Positions 4,933-10,097 of a stretch of 36,025 bases of DNA are shown one piece after another; within the stretch, counting starts at the first letter, position 1; each line of letters begins with the position of its first letter. Source of the DNA: Archaeoglobus sp. (GTDB taxonomy: Archaea; Halobacteriota; Archaeoglobi; Archaeoglobales; Archaeoglobaceae). Position numbers and translations under genes: made by a program. Location of the stretch: positions 1-36,025 of the forward strand of contig JACDNU010000026.1 of NCBI GenBank assembly GCA_017656505.1, read 5' to 3'. A model generated the notes under the pieces. The model worked only from the letters and a program-made list of their open reading frames with translations, was not told where the DNA came from and made no database searches.

Positions 4933-5047
4933 GTTGAGATAAGCTTTGCGGTGGTGTGAAAGTGCTGGAAAAGGGTGAAGCTAAAAACAGCAAACAATTG
5001 CCATTAACTTTTACTTTATCTCATCAACTTCACCATCTCAACTTCAC
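4933..5047 (-). promoter_or_regulatory. Promoter of the 4546-4914 gene with shared motif and repeats
   Basis: On the minus strand CACTTTCACACCAC (4951-4964) starts its 3' side 36 nt before the ATG and about 28 nt after a TATA-like GTTTTTAG centred near 4985. Two inverted repeats surround it: GTTGAGAT 4933-4940 with ATCTCAAC 5035-5042, and GGTGAAG 4974-4980 with CTTCACC 5028-5034. On the right the arms are contiguous and overlap two direct copies of CAACTTCAC (5025-5033, 5039-5047). Functions are inferred. Confidence 0.45.
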
Positions 5048-6012
5048 TCAACACCCAGCTTGGGAATATGGCTCAAATAAGCCAGTCTTAATTCCTCTTT
5101 GTCTATGTGATCATAGATGTCAATGGCATCTCTCCTCGCATCCCCTCTAAGCTCCTGAATGAACTCCCTTCTCATCCCGCTCCTCCTCAGCCAAGTTGTG
5201 AAGCAGTGCCTGCATGAATGCGGGGAGAAACGATCTTTCGGATTCGGAGAGGAAGGATCATGGAAGCCGAGCTTTGCAGCCCACTTCGTTACAGCATTGT
5301 AAACGCCGTTCCTGTTGAGCCTTCCTCCCAATTCGTTGACGAACAAAGCCTTGGTCTTGGGATTCATCTTCTCTCTTATTTTAAGCCATTTCTTTAAAAT
5401 CCTCCCCGTTTCATCGTCGAAGAAGACTGTTCTGTTTGATCTTTTCGCTTTCTGCTTCAGGATTATGGATTGTTCCTCGAAATCTATGTCATCGATGTCG
5501 ATGGAGATGAGCTCTCCCCTCCTTATTCCGGTTTTTAGCAGAAGCAGAAGTATGGCTTTGTCTCTGATGTAAGGAATCGAGTTGACTAAGAGGCTCGCTT
5601 CCTCCACACTCAGCACCCTCTTCTCAGAGTTGTTGTTATTCTTCTTGTAGCTGCTGAGATATCTCTTTCTCACGGGAATGACTGGGTTGGATGAAACCAC
5701 CCCTTCGTACTGCAGAAACTCGAAGAAGCTTGATATCGCTGAAAAATAGTTCTCCAGAGTTTTCTGCTTTAAGCCTCTCTGCCTTAGCTCGGAGAGGAAA
5801 TCTCTCAGCAGGAATTTGTCAACTTCTTTTACATCTGCTCCTCTAGCTTCCAGCCACCTCAGAAAGATTCTAAGGCAGGAGATGTATCGCCTAGTGCTCT
5901 CAGCCGTCATTCCCCGCTGATAGCAATCCTCTTTGAAAGCCTCGATATAGCTTTGCCTCAGAGTTTTACTCAGAGCTTGCCTCCGAGCTTGCTTTAAAGC
6001 TTCCATCTCCAC
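5044..6012 (-). CDS. Tyrosine recombinase/integrase of the tRNA-Leu element
   Basis: A 322-residue phage-type integrase. The N-terminal SAM-like core-binding domain spans about 20-110 and the catalytic domain about 132-315. Catalytic residues visible are Arg164 (TGIRRGE), a Lys near 190 (KAKRSNR), the His265-x-x-Arg268 box (PHSCRH) and the nucleophile Tyr300 (AIDIYDH). The usual LGH box is LRGDARRDAIDIY, the form I recall from haloarchaeal and other euryarchaeal integrases. Its start overlaps the end of the upstream gene by 19 nt, so the two are translated together. The pair lies directly beside the 3' end of tRNA-Leu, the expected place for the integrase of an element inserted there. The gene is not split, unlike SSV-type integrases. 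Confidence 0.9.
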   Translation of the reverse strand: MEMEALKQARRQALSKTLRQSYIEAFKEDCYQRGMTAESTRRYISCLRIFLRWLEARGADVKEVDKFLLRDFLSELRQRGLKQKTLENYFSAISSFFEFLQYEGVVSSNPVIPVRKRYLSSYKKNNNNSEKRVLSVEEASLLVNSIPYIRDKAILLLLLKTGIRRGELISIDIDDIDFEEQSIILKQKAKRSNRTVFFDDETGRILKKWLKIREKMNPKTKALFVNELGGRLNRNGVYNAVTKWAAKLGFHDPSSPNPKDRFSPHSCRHCFTTWLRRSGMRREFIQELRGDARRDAIDIYDHIDKEELRLAYLSHIPKLGVE

Positions 6013-6530
6013 CCCCTCGGTCCGGCTTCGATTATGCCGTAATCTTGAAGGATTTCCAGCTGCCTGAGATAGCTCTTCACAAGCTCAGGAGTTTTTCTCG
6101 GATCGATATTGAGCAAAGAATAGAGTTCATCGTACTCCACGAACTTCCTCTTCTTGAAGAGGTCGATCAGCTCTTTCGAGTACTCTCTCACACCTTCAAA
6201 TCGATCCTGCAGGAATGGCTTGGAACGGTAGATTCTCAGCTCCTCATCAAGCTTCTCAGCCAGATTTCTCAGCATCCTGTTCTCCCTTCTAAGCTCTGAG
6301 TTTTCTTCTTCCAGCCTCTTCAGCCTTTCAAGGAGTTCCTTTCTTGAGATAAAATCGCTATCATCCTTCGTCAAAACTTCCTGAATGCATTCAATAACGA
6401 ACTTCGATATGGAAATCCCTCTCTGCTTCGCTATTCTCTTGAGTTCATCTGCCATATCTTCAGATGGCAGGTAAACAAAGATCGATCTCTTCCTTAATGT
6501 TTTAGTTTTGCCTTTATTTGGTCTTGCCAC
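5994..6530 (-). CDS. Putative ribbon-helix-helix/coiled-coil DNA-binding protein
   Basis: A 178-residue protein with three parts: a basic start and a CopG/RHH-like segment (about 1-52: FVYLPSEDMADELKRIAKQR, then ISISKFVIECI), a long charged coiled coil (about 62-100: ERLKRLEEENSELRREN), and a C-terminal winged-helix-like part (about 118-178). It probably dimerises and binds DNA, either as the regulator of the integrase or as an excision/architectural partner. Start is GTG at 6530; an A/T-rich box 20-30 nt upstream fits a leaderless mRNA, and a 12-bp palindrome (6561-6572) lies just beyond that box as a candidate operator. It overlaps the integrase start by 19 nt. Confidence 0.7.
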   Translation of the reverse strand: MARPNKGKTKTLRKRSIFVYLPSEDMADELKRIAKQRGISISKFVIECIQEVLTKDDSDFISRKELLERLKRLEEENSELRRENRMLRNLAEKLDEELRIYRSKPFLQDRFEGVREYSKELIDLFKKRKFVEYDELYSLLNIDPRKTPELVKSYLRQLEILQDYGIIEAGPRGWRWKL

Positions 6531-6560
6531 GAAAATAGTATGCTCTCATCCTTTTTATTT

Positions 6561-6572
6561 TTTACTAGTAAA
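6561..6572. promoter_or_regulatory. 12-bp palindrome between tRNA-Leu and the integrase operon
   Basis: TTTACTAGTAAA is a perfect palindrome, 5 nt from the tRNA 3' end and 30 nt upstream of the GTG start at 6530, next to the TATA-like region. A self-regulating operator for the ribbon-helix-helix protein or an integrase arm site are both possible. Confidence 0.4.
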
Positions 6573-6576
6573 TTAG

Positions 6577-6660
6577 TGCGGGGGGAGGGATTTGAACCCT
6601 CGGACCCCTACGGGACAAGGTCTTAAGCCTTGCGCCTTTTCCTGACTCGGCAACCCCCGC
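6577..6660 (-). tRNA. tRNA-Leu (anticodon UAA)
   Basis: Read on the minus strand the gene begins GCGGGGG and ends with the pairing CCCCCGC plus discriminator A. The anticodon stem CAAGG/CCTTG holds the loop CTTAAGA, giving anticodon TAA. There is an extended variable arm, typical of leucine tRNAs, and a T arm GAGGG-TTCAAAT-CCCTC. CCA is not encoded. Its 3' end faces the integrase operon 47 nt away, so it is the likely attB of the left element. I found no partial copy of its 3' end elsewhere in the window. Confidence 0.95.
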
Positions 6661-6839: not shown

Positions 6840-7577
6840 CTATTCGGATGCAAGGTAGTCATAGAGAAAGGCAGCAAATACCGCTCCAATTATAGGCCCA
6901 ACTACGTATATCGGGAAGTATTGCCAGAGATTGACCCCTCCAATGACCGAATCACCTAAATATGGCCCAAATGTTCTCGCCGGGTTGAGGGATGATCCTG
7001 TGATATTACCGATCGTTATGATTATGCCTCCCACCGTCAATCCGATCACTATACCCGCGAATCCAGGCGGGGCTTTTTCATCAACCGCAACACCCATTAT
7101 GACGAGCATCAGAAGGAAAGTTCCAATCGCCTCTGCAATTATGGCTTGACTATAACTTATCCCCGGGAAAGGTGCTGTTGCACCAAGACCGCCAACCGTT
7201 ATTGCTTCGATTCCAACACAGGCCACAAAAAGAAAGCTACCGAGAGCGGCTCCTATAAGCTGGGCAAAGATATAGGGTACAACTTCTTTTGAGGGAAACC
7301 TTTTCGTTGCCCATAAAGCTATGGTTACAGCAGGATTGATATGCGCGCCTGAAACCCTTCCTAGAGAATATATCACGGCTGAAATTGCAAGGGCGAATGC
7401 CATACCAATTGCAATCCAGTCTCCAAGTCCACCAAGAGTTCCAATTCCTATATTGAATGGATTAGGGGGAGTTGAACCTTTAGCAATCATCAGTGTAATG
7501 GCCGCAGCTCCTGGCCCGAAAAAGACCAGGATAAACGTTCCAACTACCTCAGCCAAACATCTTTTGAATAGTGCCAT
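6840..7577 (-). CDS. aqpM: Aquaporin/aquaglyceroporin AqpM (MIP family)
   Basis: A 245-residue membrane channel with six membrane helices and both half-helix NPA boxes: HINPAVT (NPA 81-83) and SLNPARTFGP (NPA 198-200), the second followed by the selectivity-filter Arg201. Such channels pass water and small neutral solutes such as glycerol; for archaeal AqpM, H2S and CO2 have also been discussed. It is the last gene of an operon with the DUF2180 gene (gap 16 nt) and the DUF2193 gene. It could therefore supply or release a small neutral compound used by the DUF2193 protein; this is inference from the operon only. Confidence 0.95.
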   Translation of the reverse strand: MALFKRCLAEVVGTFILVFFGPGAAAITLMIAKGSTPPNPFNIGIGTLGGLGDWIAIGMAFALAISAVIYSLGRVSGAHINPAVTIALWATKRFPSKEVVPYIFAQLIGAALGSFLFVACVGIEAITVGGLGATAPFPGISYSQAIIAEAIGTFLLMLVIMGVAVDEKAPPGFAGIVIGLTVGGIIITIGNITGSSLNPARTFGPYLGDSVIGGVNLWQYFPIYVVGPIIGAVFAAFLYDYLASE

Positions 7578-7593
7578 TTTTTACCTCAACCCC

Positions 7594-7800
7594 TTATTTC
7601 TTATAGGTCTCGTAGCACATGGGACAGAGAATTCTTGGAATCGTCTTTTCCAGTTTCCTAGCTGGAAATGGATATCCGCCTTCCCATATTTCAATCTCTT
7701 CTCTCACCAGATGGTTCACACACAAGCCCATACCACAAACAATACAAATTGCTACTGCATCGGTATCTTTGCCCTGCTCCTTACAAATATAGCATTTCAT
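7594..7800 (-). CDS. DUF2180-type small zinc-binding protein
   Basis: A 68-residue protein with four Cys/His clusters: C3-x2-C6, C19-x2-C22, C27-x2-H30 and C59-x2-C62, which resembles a B-box-like double zinc site. The strings DTDAVAICIVCGMGLC and GGYPFPARKL match what I recall of the archaeal DUF2180 family, whose function is unknown. It lies between the DUF2193 gene (26 nt upstream) and aqpM (16 nt downstream), so it is translated from the same mRNA and probably helps the same process, as an adaptor or metal-binding partner. Confidence 0.8.
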   Translation of the reverse strand: MKCYICKEQGKDTDAVAICIVCGMGLCVNHLVREEIEIWEGGYPFPARKLEKTIPRILCPMCYETYKK

Positions 7801-7826
7801 ATCTGTTCACCAAAAAAAGAAAAAAA

Positions 7827-9326
7827 TTAAACGGCCTCTTTCCACTGGCACCACTGATGTCTGAAATCAACCAAGCAGGCTGTTCCGCACTCCTTGCAAA
7901 CCCTTGCCGGAGCGCCAGGAGTTTCTTTGTGCATAGCTATTACGTTTGTCATCATCGTTGCCGTTACGGGCTCGCTTGTGAGCAAACATGGATAGTCGGC
8001 CAACCTCATAAGAGCTGAATATCTCACGGTTATCGCACATCCCGGATAGGTGTAGCGCTGCGGATTCATTATTACCTCATTTTCGTGTATCGGCTTTAGG
8101 TCTACATCAAATCCTGCAACTTTTGGAACGAGTTCAGCCCCCATTCCGTTTACGCTTCTTCTTGCCTCATCAAGATACCTCCATCCCCTATAGATCATGT
8201 CCATAAAGTCGTGGTTGTGAAGCTCCGCCGCAGCACTCCTTGTTGGATAAAGCTGCACATAGTTATGGAATCTCTTTGTCAGCAAGTCGACGACCATCGG
8301 AGCATTGAATCCGTCTAACTCAAGTATGTACTCAACAGCACAGGCTGTAGAACCTGTAGCAAGTGAAAGAGGCTGATATACATTCTTGAATCCATCAATC
8401 GCATTCCTCAGAGTTGAATCCATGACCTCTGTTGTAGCCTCTATTATAGCCATAACCACATCATCCTTGCACATGTTGAAGGTTGACTGAGCTATGTGGT
8501 GGGAGATATCTCCAACACAGTATGCTGGAACCGTAACTATGTTTCCGTAATGAACTCCATCATCCACCGCTTCCTTTATCGCTCCCTCAATTCTCTTTCT
8601 ATATTCTGCCATATACTTTCTGACGTCAAAGGATGTGTGTCCTGCCGAGTCCATCAGCTTTGCCTGAGCCTCAACGGGGCTTTCGTAGATGAATTTCACC
8701 ATTTCAACTTCTTTTTTAACCGCATCCGCCACGGTTGAACCTTTCTCAACTTCGTTTGCAAAAACATCTCCGATACCATAGGAGGTGTTCATACCCCACG
8801 ATTTCGCAGCTAGAATAGCCTGCTTATGCTCCTTTGGCATGTCTGTTTCTTTTAAAATTCTATTTACAACATTGCTCGTGCTTCCCGGAATCAAAGCGAA
8901 GTCTACAACGCAAGTAGGGCCATAAAATCCACCATACCTCCTTACAGACTCCCTACCAATCAAAGCCTCTGCCTTACCGATTGCCTGGATAAATATCTCC
9001 ATGCTTTTCTTGAACTTCTCATCCTCATCGTAGAGGATTTCCAGTATTACTGGAGTTTGATAGTGCTCCACAAATGGATCGTCTTCGGGGCGAACTGTCT
9101 TTGTTAGACTTTTCAGTATTTCATAGTGGGCATTTATTGAATCTACATGAAGCCTGAAAACAGCTTTGCTTTGATCCCCCATGGCTTTCATTTTGTTTGC
9201 AGCGTCTACGTACGCCTTTGTGTCTTCAATTACGAATTCTTGACCTCTCTTTCTCTTAACGGTCTCCACATCAGCCCTCTGGGCTGCCATTGCTTCATCA
9301 ATCATTTTTTCATACAACTCTTTCAT
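7827..9326 (-). CDS. DUF2193-type archaeal protein, 499 residues
   Basis: A soluble 499-residue protein that I recognise as the archaeal DUF2193 family, with less certainty than the neighbours. It is mostly helical, with Gly-rich loops (YGGFYGPTCVVDFALIPGST), a His/Cys segment (YCVGDISHHIAQSTFNMC) and a C-terminal cysteine group C477-x2-C480-x3-C484 then C493, which may bind zinc or an iron-sulphur cluster. No nucleotide-binding loop or signal peptide is seen. It is the first gene of the DUF2193-DUF2180-aqpM operon, and a Bat-like regulator is transcribed divergently 69 nt away. The function is unknown. Conserved Cys and His residues and the channel partner suggest an enzyme acting on a small molecule; this is inference. 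Confidence 0.8.
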   Translation of the reverse strand: MKELYEKMIDEAMAAQRADVETVKRKRGQEFVIEDTKAYVDAANKMKAMGDQSKAVFRLHVDSINAHYEILKSLTKTVRPEDDPFVEHYQTPVILEILYDEDEKFKKSMEIFIQAIGKAEALIGRESVRRYGGFYGPTCVVDFALIPGSTSNVVNRILKETDMPKEHKQAILAAKSWGMNTSYGIGDVFANEVEKGSTVADAVKKEVEMVKFIYESPVEAQAKLMDSAGHTSFDVRKYMAEYRKRIEGAIKEAVDDGVHYGNIVTVPAYCVGDISHHIAQSTFNMCKDDVVMAIIEATTEVMDSTLRNAIDGFKNVYQPLSLATGSTACAVEYILELDGFNAPMVVDLLTKRFHNYVQLYPTRSAAAELHNHDFMDMIYRGWRYLDEARRSVNGMGAELVPKVAGFDVDLKPIHENEVIMNPQRYTYPGCAITVRYSALMRLADYPCLLTSEPVTATMMTNVIAMHKETPGAPARVCKECGTACLVDFRHQWCQWKEAV

Positions 9327-9395
9327 TTAATCACCGAATTATTATTATCTCTAATCTGTTAAATATCATTTGGAGGATATTTTTAAATAAAAAAC
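9327..9395. promoter_or_regulatory. Divergent promoter region, DUF2193 operon and HTH_10 regulator
   Basis: The 69-nt gap is A/T-rich. TTTAAATA (about 9382-9389) read on the minus strand lies where a TATA box should be for a start about 30 nt before the DUF2193 ATG. TTAAATAT (about 9359-9366) on the plus strand fits a start just before the regulator. The two promoters would overlap, so one bound protein could control both directions. Confidence 0.45.
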
Positions 9396-10097
9396 TTGGA
9401 TATGTCTACCAAAAACTATATCCTGAAGGTGGAACATATCCTACACATGTACGTTGCAAAAATTAAATTGAATCAATCAAGCTGTTCTCTTGCCTATGCC
9501 ACACAGGATGGAAAATTCTCAATGCAGATAATGGAATACATCCTCCTCAACGATCAGGATGCAGTCTTTCTTTGCAGAATAGATGATGTTGATGGTGATC
9601 TCAACAAATATTTTGAGATTATGGAACGGCACGAGTCCACGAAATTCCTCCAGATTCTAGAGAAAACCCCTACAAATCTTGATTTTATCGCCGTCGTCAG
9701 GGATACAACCGGAATAAAGGCTTTTGAAGAATGTTATTGCTTTATAAAGCCACCAATCAAAATCAGAAATGGCAATAAGTATTACACAGTCTTTGCCCCG
9801 GATATAGTGCATTTGAAAAGGGCATATGAGAAGCTTAAAAAGATAGGAAGATGGGAAGTTCTAGAGGTAAAGGCTAAGGATTCTGTTAAATCACCATTAA
9901 CTAATTCTCAAAAGAGAGTTCTTGAAATAGCCTATAAGATGGGATACTTTTCGAAGAGAAGGGGGGTTAACATCCAACAAATTGCCGATGCACTCGGTTT
10001 GTCGAAGAGCACCGTTCACAAGCATCTAAAGGATGCTCTTAGCAGAATAGTCGATGACTTCATCGAGCGACATGTTGAGCCTCCTGAAATATACTGA
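9396..10097 (+). CDS. Bat-like HTH_10 transcription regulator
   Basis: A 233-residue protein with an unassigned sensor-type N-terminal part (about 1-160) and a C-terminal HTH_10 domain (about 168-222: LTNSQKRVLEIAYKMGYF then IQQIADALGLSKSTVHKHL), the domain of bacterio-opsin activator Bat and many archaeal regulators. It is divergent from the DUF2193-DUF2180-aqpM operon and separated by a shared short promoter region, so it is the obvious candidate regulator of that operon. The listed start is a TTG; an ATG two codons later (9402) is equally good. The N-terminal part holds scattered Cys residues (30, 60, 113, 115) that could sense redox state or metal; this is inference. Confidence 0.85.
   Translation: MDMSTKNYILKVEHILHMYVAKIKLNQSSCSLAYATQDGKFSMQIMEYILLNDQDAVFLCRIDDVDGDLNKYFEIMERHESTKFLQILEKTPTNLDFIAVVRDTTGIKAFEECYCFIKPPIKIRNGNKYYTVFAPDIVHLKRAYEKLKKIGRWEVLEVKAKDSVKSPLTNSQKRVLEIAYKMGYFSKRRGVNIQQIADALGLSKSTVHKHLKDALSRIVDDFIERHVEPPEIY

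Follow-up and report, generated by a model that had tools for sequence, protein, structure and literature searches.

The genes for DUF2193, DUF2180 and the archaeal aquaporin AqpM form a strongly conserved operon module of methanogens and Archaeoglobales. The example analysed here lies in a 36,025-nucleotide stretch of DNA from Archaeoglobus sp. (GenBank assembly GCA_017656505.1, contig JACDNU010000026.1; hereafter the window), where the three genes are read from the minus strand in the order DUF2193, DUF2180, AqpM with intergenic distances of 26 and then 16 nucleotides (nt), next to a divergent gene for an HTH_10 regulator. A preliminary description of this sequence had placed the four open reading frames (ORFs), measured the two gaps and named the families correctly, and all four families score above their Pfam cut-offs. 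The DUF2193 protein matches PF09959 over residues 2-499 (E 3.2e-278, 923.6 bits, cut-off 25), the DUF2180 protein PF09947 (E 3.6e-39, 133 bits, cut-off 22.2), the channel the MIP family (E 2.4e-47) and the C-terminal domain of the regulator HTH_10 (PF04967; E 5e-17, 62 bits, cut-off 23.1). The same description named no assigned function for the two DUF families; in the literature searched, where one paper mentions DUF2193 and none DUF2180, we likewise found none published for either, nor any report of the operon or of the MtrH- and aldehyde oxidoreductase-linked DUF2193 paralogue described below. Tentatively, we read the module as a channel joined to an enzyme that works on one-carbon (C1) units bound to tetrahydromethanopterin (H4MPT) and may act at a formaldehyde or alkylidene step, with DUF2180 in an accessory or sensory role.

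Conservation of the operon

The preliminary description regarded routine separation of these genes in other genomes as evidence against a common system. In two samples of main-clade DUF2193 loci (n=67 and n=80), AqpM lies immediately downstream of DUF2193 in 65/67 and 76/80, and DUF2180 is placed between them in 54/67 and 76/80, an outcome that speaks for the reading as one system. The genes are contiguous on the same strand with median gaps of 26-29 nt, a linkage far above chance. DUF2193 is present in 123/393 genomes of the phylum of the window and in 82/152 genomes of the phylum containing a Methanobacteriaceae genome. The order was found in Archaeoglobus, Geoglobus, Methanothrix, Methanoregula, Methanoculleus, Methanocalculus, Methanosarcinales and Methanobacteriaceae, and thus extends over several orders, including Archaeoglobales, Methanomicrobiales and Methanobacteriales, and two phyla. 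Methanobacteriales loci read either DUF2193-DUF2180-AqpM or DUF2193-AqpM. DUF2180 is the component most often lost, as in Methanobrevibacter-like and Methanosarcinaceae genomes that retain DUF2193-AqpM. Genomes (G) and loci (L) of relatives carry our own numbers; the names A. fulgidus, M. thermautotrophicus, M. acetivorans and M. smithii are presumptive for these genomes, and only Ca. Ethanoperedens was checked by protein identity.

The DUF2193 protein

The AlphaFold2 model of DUF2193 is all-helical (mean predicted local distance difference test score, pLDDT, 91.8; predicted template-modelling score, pTM, 0.91), and hydropathy indicates that it is not a membrane protein. A Foldseek comparison with the PDB and viral models returned nothing at E<=0.001, with TM (template-modelling) scores of about 0.2 or lower, and sequence and profile searches of the PDB gave no meaningful match. 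When 187 distinct homologues are aligned, 49 residues never vary within the main clade and reach at least 95% conservation among the paralogues. They include H67, E87, Q90, R129, D142, H276, H277, D288, R363, H370, D373, D376, D444, C447 and E452, a shared pattern suggestive of a catalytic pocket that is large and polar.

The C-terminal cysteine group noticed in the preliminary description is borne out as C477-x2-C480-x9-[H/C]490-x2-C493, conserved in the 187 homologues, with the three cysteines invariant. In the main clade, 156 sequences have H at position 490 and 11 have C; the paralogues have C there, and Q or Y is rare. This exchange of histidine and cysteine tends to favour a zinc-ribbon-like site over an Fe-S cluster.

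A sister clade in one-carbon operons

A second group of DUF2193 proteins, 32-41% identical to the window protein, forms a monophyletic sister clade (FastTree support 1.0) whose members never adjoin AqpM. In Archaeoglobales, its gene and that of an MtrH homologue make up a unit of two genes that overlap by 4 or 17 nt or are separated by a 4-nt gap, and to judge from this layout the two are translationally coupled. Two genomes resembling anaerobic methanotrophic archaea (ANME-like) and G388 have the genes arranged as [mtrB-mtrA-]mtrH-mer-aor-DUF2193, where aor encodes an aldehyde oxidoreductase (AOR): mtrB-mtrA-mtrH-mer-aor-DUF2193 at L098 and L103 and mtrH-mer-aor-DUF2193 at L108. A further locus (L099) reads mtrH-MtaA-like-aor-DUF2193-mer. 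The McrA of G388 is identical to ethyl-coenzyme M (ethyl-CoM) reductase 7B1S over 595/595 residues, which identifies this genome as Ca. Ethanoperedens thermophilum. Here (L103:5592-12536), the DUF2193 paralogue directly follows aor in the mtrB-mtrA-mtrH-mer-aor operon, mer and mtrH score above NCBIfam equivalog cut-offs, and the AOR matches tungsten aldehyde oxidoreductases. The canonical mtr operon is not known to include aor or DUF2193, both of which are additions to it.

Since the sister clade is coupled to MtrH and built into the mtr-mer-aor operon, and the same core residues are invariant across both clades, we infer that DUF2193 is an enzyme acting on H4MPT-linked C1 or alkyl units. A comparison of its phyletic profile with that of MCH, the H4MPT cyclohydrolase, was not discriminating, because MCH occurs in 381/393 genomes, including lineages free of DUF2193. 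Two papers on ethane oxidation state that the route from ethyl-CoM to acetyl-coenzyme A (acetyl-CoA) is unknown and suspect an AOR (PMC7175092, PMC11493965), the later, from 2024, still describing this step as uncharacterised (PMC11493965). The passages found in these papers make no mention of a DUF2193 gene in the Ethanoperedens aor operon (PMC7175092, PMC11493965), where the paralogue is a candidate for this route.

MtrH-family enzymes usually need a partner protein. DUF2193 could be that partner, a new all-helical methyltransferase or corrinoid component that holds or exchanges methyl groups, with H4MPT on one side and a further acceptor or donor on the other, while AqpM would pass a small product that is methylated or hydroxylated, for example methanol. 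The Archaeoglobales paralogue would fit this role: its one constant companion is MtrH, the two genes overlap, and mer and aor are both absent. The third NCBIfam match is a corrinoid-dependent MtgA model. However, inspection of DUF2193 by eye showed no corrinoid-binding signature and no B12-binding domain is among its Pfam matches listed, and the aor-linked loci already have MtrA as corrinoid protein. We regard methyl transfer as unlikely.

AqpM and its solute

The window channel is AqpM proper, and the structures closest to it are 3NE2 (A. fulgidus AqpM; E 3e-124) and 2EVU/2F2B (M. marburgensis AqpM; E 1e-114), orthologous channels that share with it a length of 245 residues and the F-I-R filter. 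The filter residues F61, I186 and R201 are at least 97% conserved among AqpM orthologues; the published filter positions are F62/I187/R202 (PMC3287591). The filter of AqpM measures 1.4 A, and the channel is poorly permeable to glycerol and is reported not to transport H2S (PMC3287591, PMC6912568); it has been measured as a water channel, with its physiological role listed as unidentified (PMC6912568). With so narrow a filter, poor passage of glycerol and reportedly no transport of H2S, the channel suits no solute but a neutral one of very small size. Glycerol and H2S, which the preliminary description had offered among the molecules admitted or exported, are both disfavoured by these data. AqpM has been published as a stand-alone water/glycerol channel, and the papers found do not discuss an operon with DUF2193 and DUF2180.

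These properties also bear on a role of the module in iron and sulfur acquisition, in which DUF2193 would bind iron or a labile Fe-S cluster and AqpM would let sulfide through. The one earlier lead on the family comes from a study in which Mvol_0354, a full-length DUF2193 family member, is more abundant during growth on pyrite than on sulfide, and its C-terminal cysteine motif was proposed as an Fe-S ligand; the passages found in it give no operon or MtrH link (PMC9431491). The reported lack of H2S transport by AqpM, the alternation of His and Cys at ligand 490 as in zinc-ribbon-like sites, and the surroundings of the paralogues, which point to C1 metabolism rather than Fe-S assembly, all speak against such a role, and we consider it very unlikely.

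A possible role in formaldehyde or alkylidene chemistry

The exact reaction of DUF2193 is a guess, with formaldehyde as the most plausible small neutral partner to pass through AqpM. In this scheme, DUF2193 would reversibly release or capture an aldehyde from an alkylidene-H4MPT adduct. In the operon clade, the reaction would be methylene-H4MPT + H2O <-> formaldehyde + H4MPT, and AqpM would serve as a putative membrane route by which formaldehyde or its hydrate equilibrates. In the sister clade, DUF2193 could act between Mer and AOR. First, Mtr would convert alkyl-CoM to alkyl-H4MPT; second, Mer would yield alkylidene-H4MPT; third, DUF2193 would reversibly release aldehyde and H4MPT; and finally, AOR would oxidise the aldehyde to the acid with ferredoxin. 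In its most specific form, in which DUF2193 is a new all-helical fold interconverting alkylidene-H4MPT and aldehyde, with formaldehyde in the operon clade and, in the AOR clade, the missing ethyl-CoM to acetyl chemistry of Ethanoperedens (Mtr and Mer working on ethyl groups), the proposal is a long shot.

Several observations weigh against a formaldehyde or alkylidene role. Fae, which captures formaldehyde, is already present in many archaea. No C1 gene is among the recurrent neighbours of operon-clade DUF2193, and the paralogues, at only 32-41% identity, may catalyse another reaction. The pyrite-linked abundance of Mvol_0354 also lies outside it. Moreover, the parts are separable: the M. acetivorans-like genome G383 has DUF2193 without AqpM, and a few Methanomicrobiales (L210-L214) keep DUF2180-AqpM with DUF2193 gone or reduced to short remnants, no replacement enzyme having been found in the genomes that lose it. 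That DUF2180-AqpM can outlast DUF2193, together with the measured water conduction of AqpM (PMC6912568), could also mean that the channel is a plain water, osmotic or CO2 channel and that the enzyme is adjacent for unrelated historical reasons. Contiguity over several orders and two phyla with such short gaps would be unexpected without functional coupling, however, and this view seems to us decidedly improbable. The coupled C1 module is the reading that we prefer, if tentatively.

Each of the families is already catalogued. In its arrangement the locus is similar to operons of the glpF-glpK type, which likewise combine a channel for a small neutral solute with an enzyme and a local regulator (here in Archaeoglobales), but DUF2193 is all-helical, has no fold match in the PDB and is unrelated to kinases, and AqpM conducts glycerol poorly. 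Fae resembles DUF2193 in the proposed reaction of formaldehyde with H4MPT; no Fae domain is among the Pfam matches listed for DUF2193, so that the analogy is functional only. The mtr and mer operons of methanogens and alkane oxidisers are linked to the system through the DUF2193 paralogue, which stands in one operon with genuine mtrH and mer genes. DUF2193 is large, very highly conserved and common to many methanogens, and it has no solved relative. Through the constant association of the two, AqpM would acquire a metabolic partner. The sister-clade operon includes one of the AORs that are suspected in the conversion of ethyl-CoM to acetyl-CoA, a stated gap in anaerobic ethane oxidation.

DUF2180 and its other contexts

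The double zinc-like site that the preliminary description saw in the small protein stands as a pair of predicted sites: the eight Cys/His ligands C3, C6, C19, C22, C27, H30, C59 and C62 are conserved in 143-145 of 145 distinct sequences, and the AlphaFold2 model has a pLDDT of 92. The sole resemblance in a fold search, to ribosomal protein eS26, was weak and partial, and we rejected kinship with eS26.

Outside the operon, two DUF2180 genes in tandem stand at the head of a cluster for oxidative stress in G383 (L199:8674-15156) that comprises AhpD-like, superoxide-reductase-like, multihaem cytochrome, Fe-S flavoprotein, rubrerythrin and FprA-like genes. In ANME-like genomes, tandem DUF2180 genes lie near McrC, 2-oxoacid:ferredoxin oxidoreductase and ferritin-like genes; at L203, L206 and L209, the pairs directly follow a McrC-like gene (recognised by eye) and precede 2-oxoacid:ferredoxin oxidoreductase-like subunits.

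With relatives in redox-stress and McrC loci, this two-zinc protein may be an accessory component or a sensor of the C1 module. The module as a whole could instead serve peroxide or redox stress, with AqpM as a peroxiporin or water channel, DUF2180 as a zinc redox switch and DUF2193 as a detoxifying or repair enzyme. The two contexts of tandem DUF2180 just described, in Methanosarcina and in ANME-like genomes, would suit such a module, as would the narrow, water-type pore of AqpM (PMC3287591) and the existence of peroxiporins (PMC6912568). DUF2193 paralogues are nevertheless found in C1 operons and not in stress clusters, and DUF2193-AqpM persists in the genomes that lack DUF2180, and we think a stress module unlikely.

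Locus layout and regulation

The features of the locus are collected in Table 1.

Table 1. Genes and sites of the DUF2193-DUF2180-AqpM locus (positions in the window).
Feature	Position	Strand	Description
AqpM gene	6840..7577	-	terminal operon gene; MIP channel
DUF2180 gene	7594..7800	-	middle gene; 68 aa; two predicted zinc sites, eight ligands
DUF2193 gene	7827..9326	-	operon gene 1; 499 aa, predicted all-helical soluble enzyme
C-terminal CX2CX9[H/C]X2C site of DUF2193	7830..7898	-	C477, C480, H490, C493; zinc-ribbon-like
Divergent promoter region	9327..9446		between operon and regulator; holds paired palindromic operators
Operator copy 2	9398..9407	-	AGACATATCC; 9/10 match to GGAYATRTCC; 34 bp from copy 1
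Operator copy 1	9432..9441	-	GGATATGTTC; 9/10 match to GGAYATRTCC
HTH_10 regulator	9447..10097	+	divergent; probable start ATG 9447; ORF opens TTG 9396

The regulator is indeed divergent, as first described, but the 69-nt spacer given for it assumed the TTG. Most divergent relatives have stops or a frameshift ahead of the position that corresponds to codon 18, and their proteins begin at the Met found there, which makes the ATG the likelier start and the spacer probably 120 nt. The name Bat-like likewise holds for the C-terminal HTH_10 domain; the 25 Pfam matches listed include no N-terminal PAS or GAF domain and only a sub-threshold HVO_A0563_N, so that this is an HTH_10 protein and not Bat proper. 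An HTH_10 gene adjoins the operon in 17/67 main-clade loci (13 divergent, 4 same-strand), all in Archaeoglobales except one Methanosarcinaceae copy (L105). The earlier view of a regulated system thus applies to Archaeoglobales, where the regulator is an addition with its own operator, and to that single locus.

Across 16 non-redundant intergenic regions between regulator and operon, the palindrome GGAYATRTCC is typically paired at a spacing of 34-38 bp. Sites matching it at 8/10 or better number 35, where 3.1 would be expected and the highest count among 300 shuffles was 10, and the 124 operons without the regulator show no excess (57 sites, 55.6 expected). Similar sites are also present at the four same-strand loci (A. 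fulgidus group) and at L105. We found no earlier report of this paired operator, which is new here. The HTH_10 protein probably binds the paired palindromes. Because the window copies precede the first gene of the operon and stand shortly before the probable start codon of the regulator, activation of the operon with autoregulation is the most likely role of this protein. In 14 Archaeoglobales genomes, few operator pairs besides those of the operon were matched and no wider regulon was shown; an extra site that was inspected and is shared by two of these genomes lies inside an ORF.

Two loci have further genes of these families. L105:4037-8449 (G266, Methanosarcinaceae) is a second DUF2193 copy with a divergent HTH_10 gene, the palindrome TAGGACATGTCCTA shared with the operator, a divergent MIP gene and an FrhB-like gene. 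At L046:7978-8223 (Archaeoglobales), an additional DUF2180 gene, about 40% identical, lies between the HTH_10 gene and DUF2193.

Beside the operon, no attachment repeat of the tRNA-Leu was found for window positions 5044-6660, a possible integrated element in which a tyrosine recombinase (5044-6012) and a ribbon-helix-helix-like coiled-coil protein (5994-6530) adjoin the tRNA-Leu (6576-6660).

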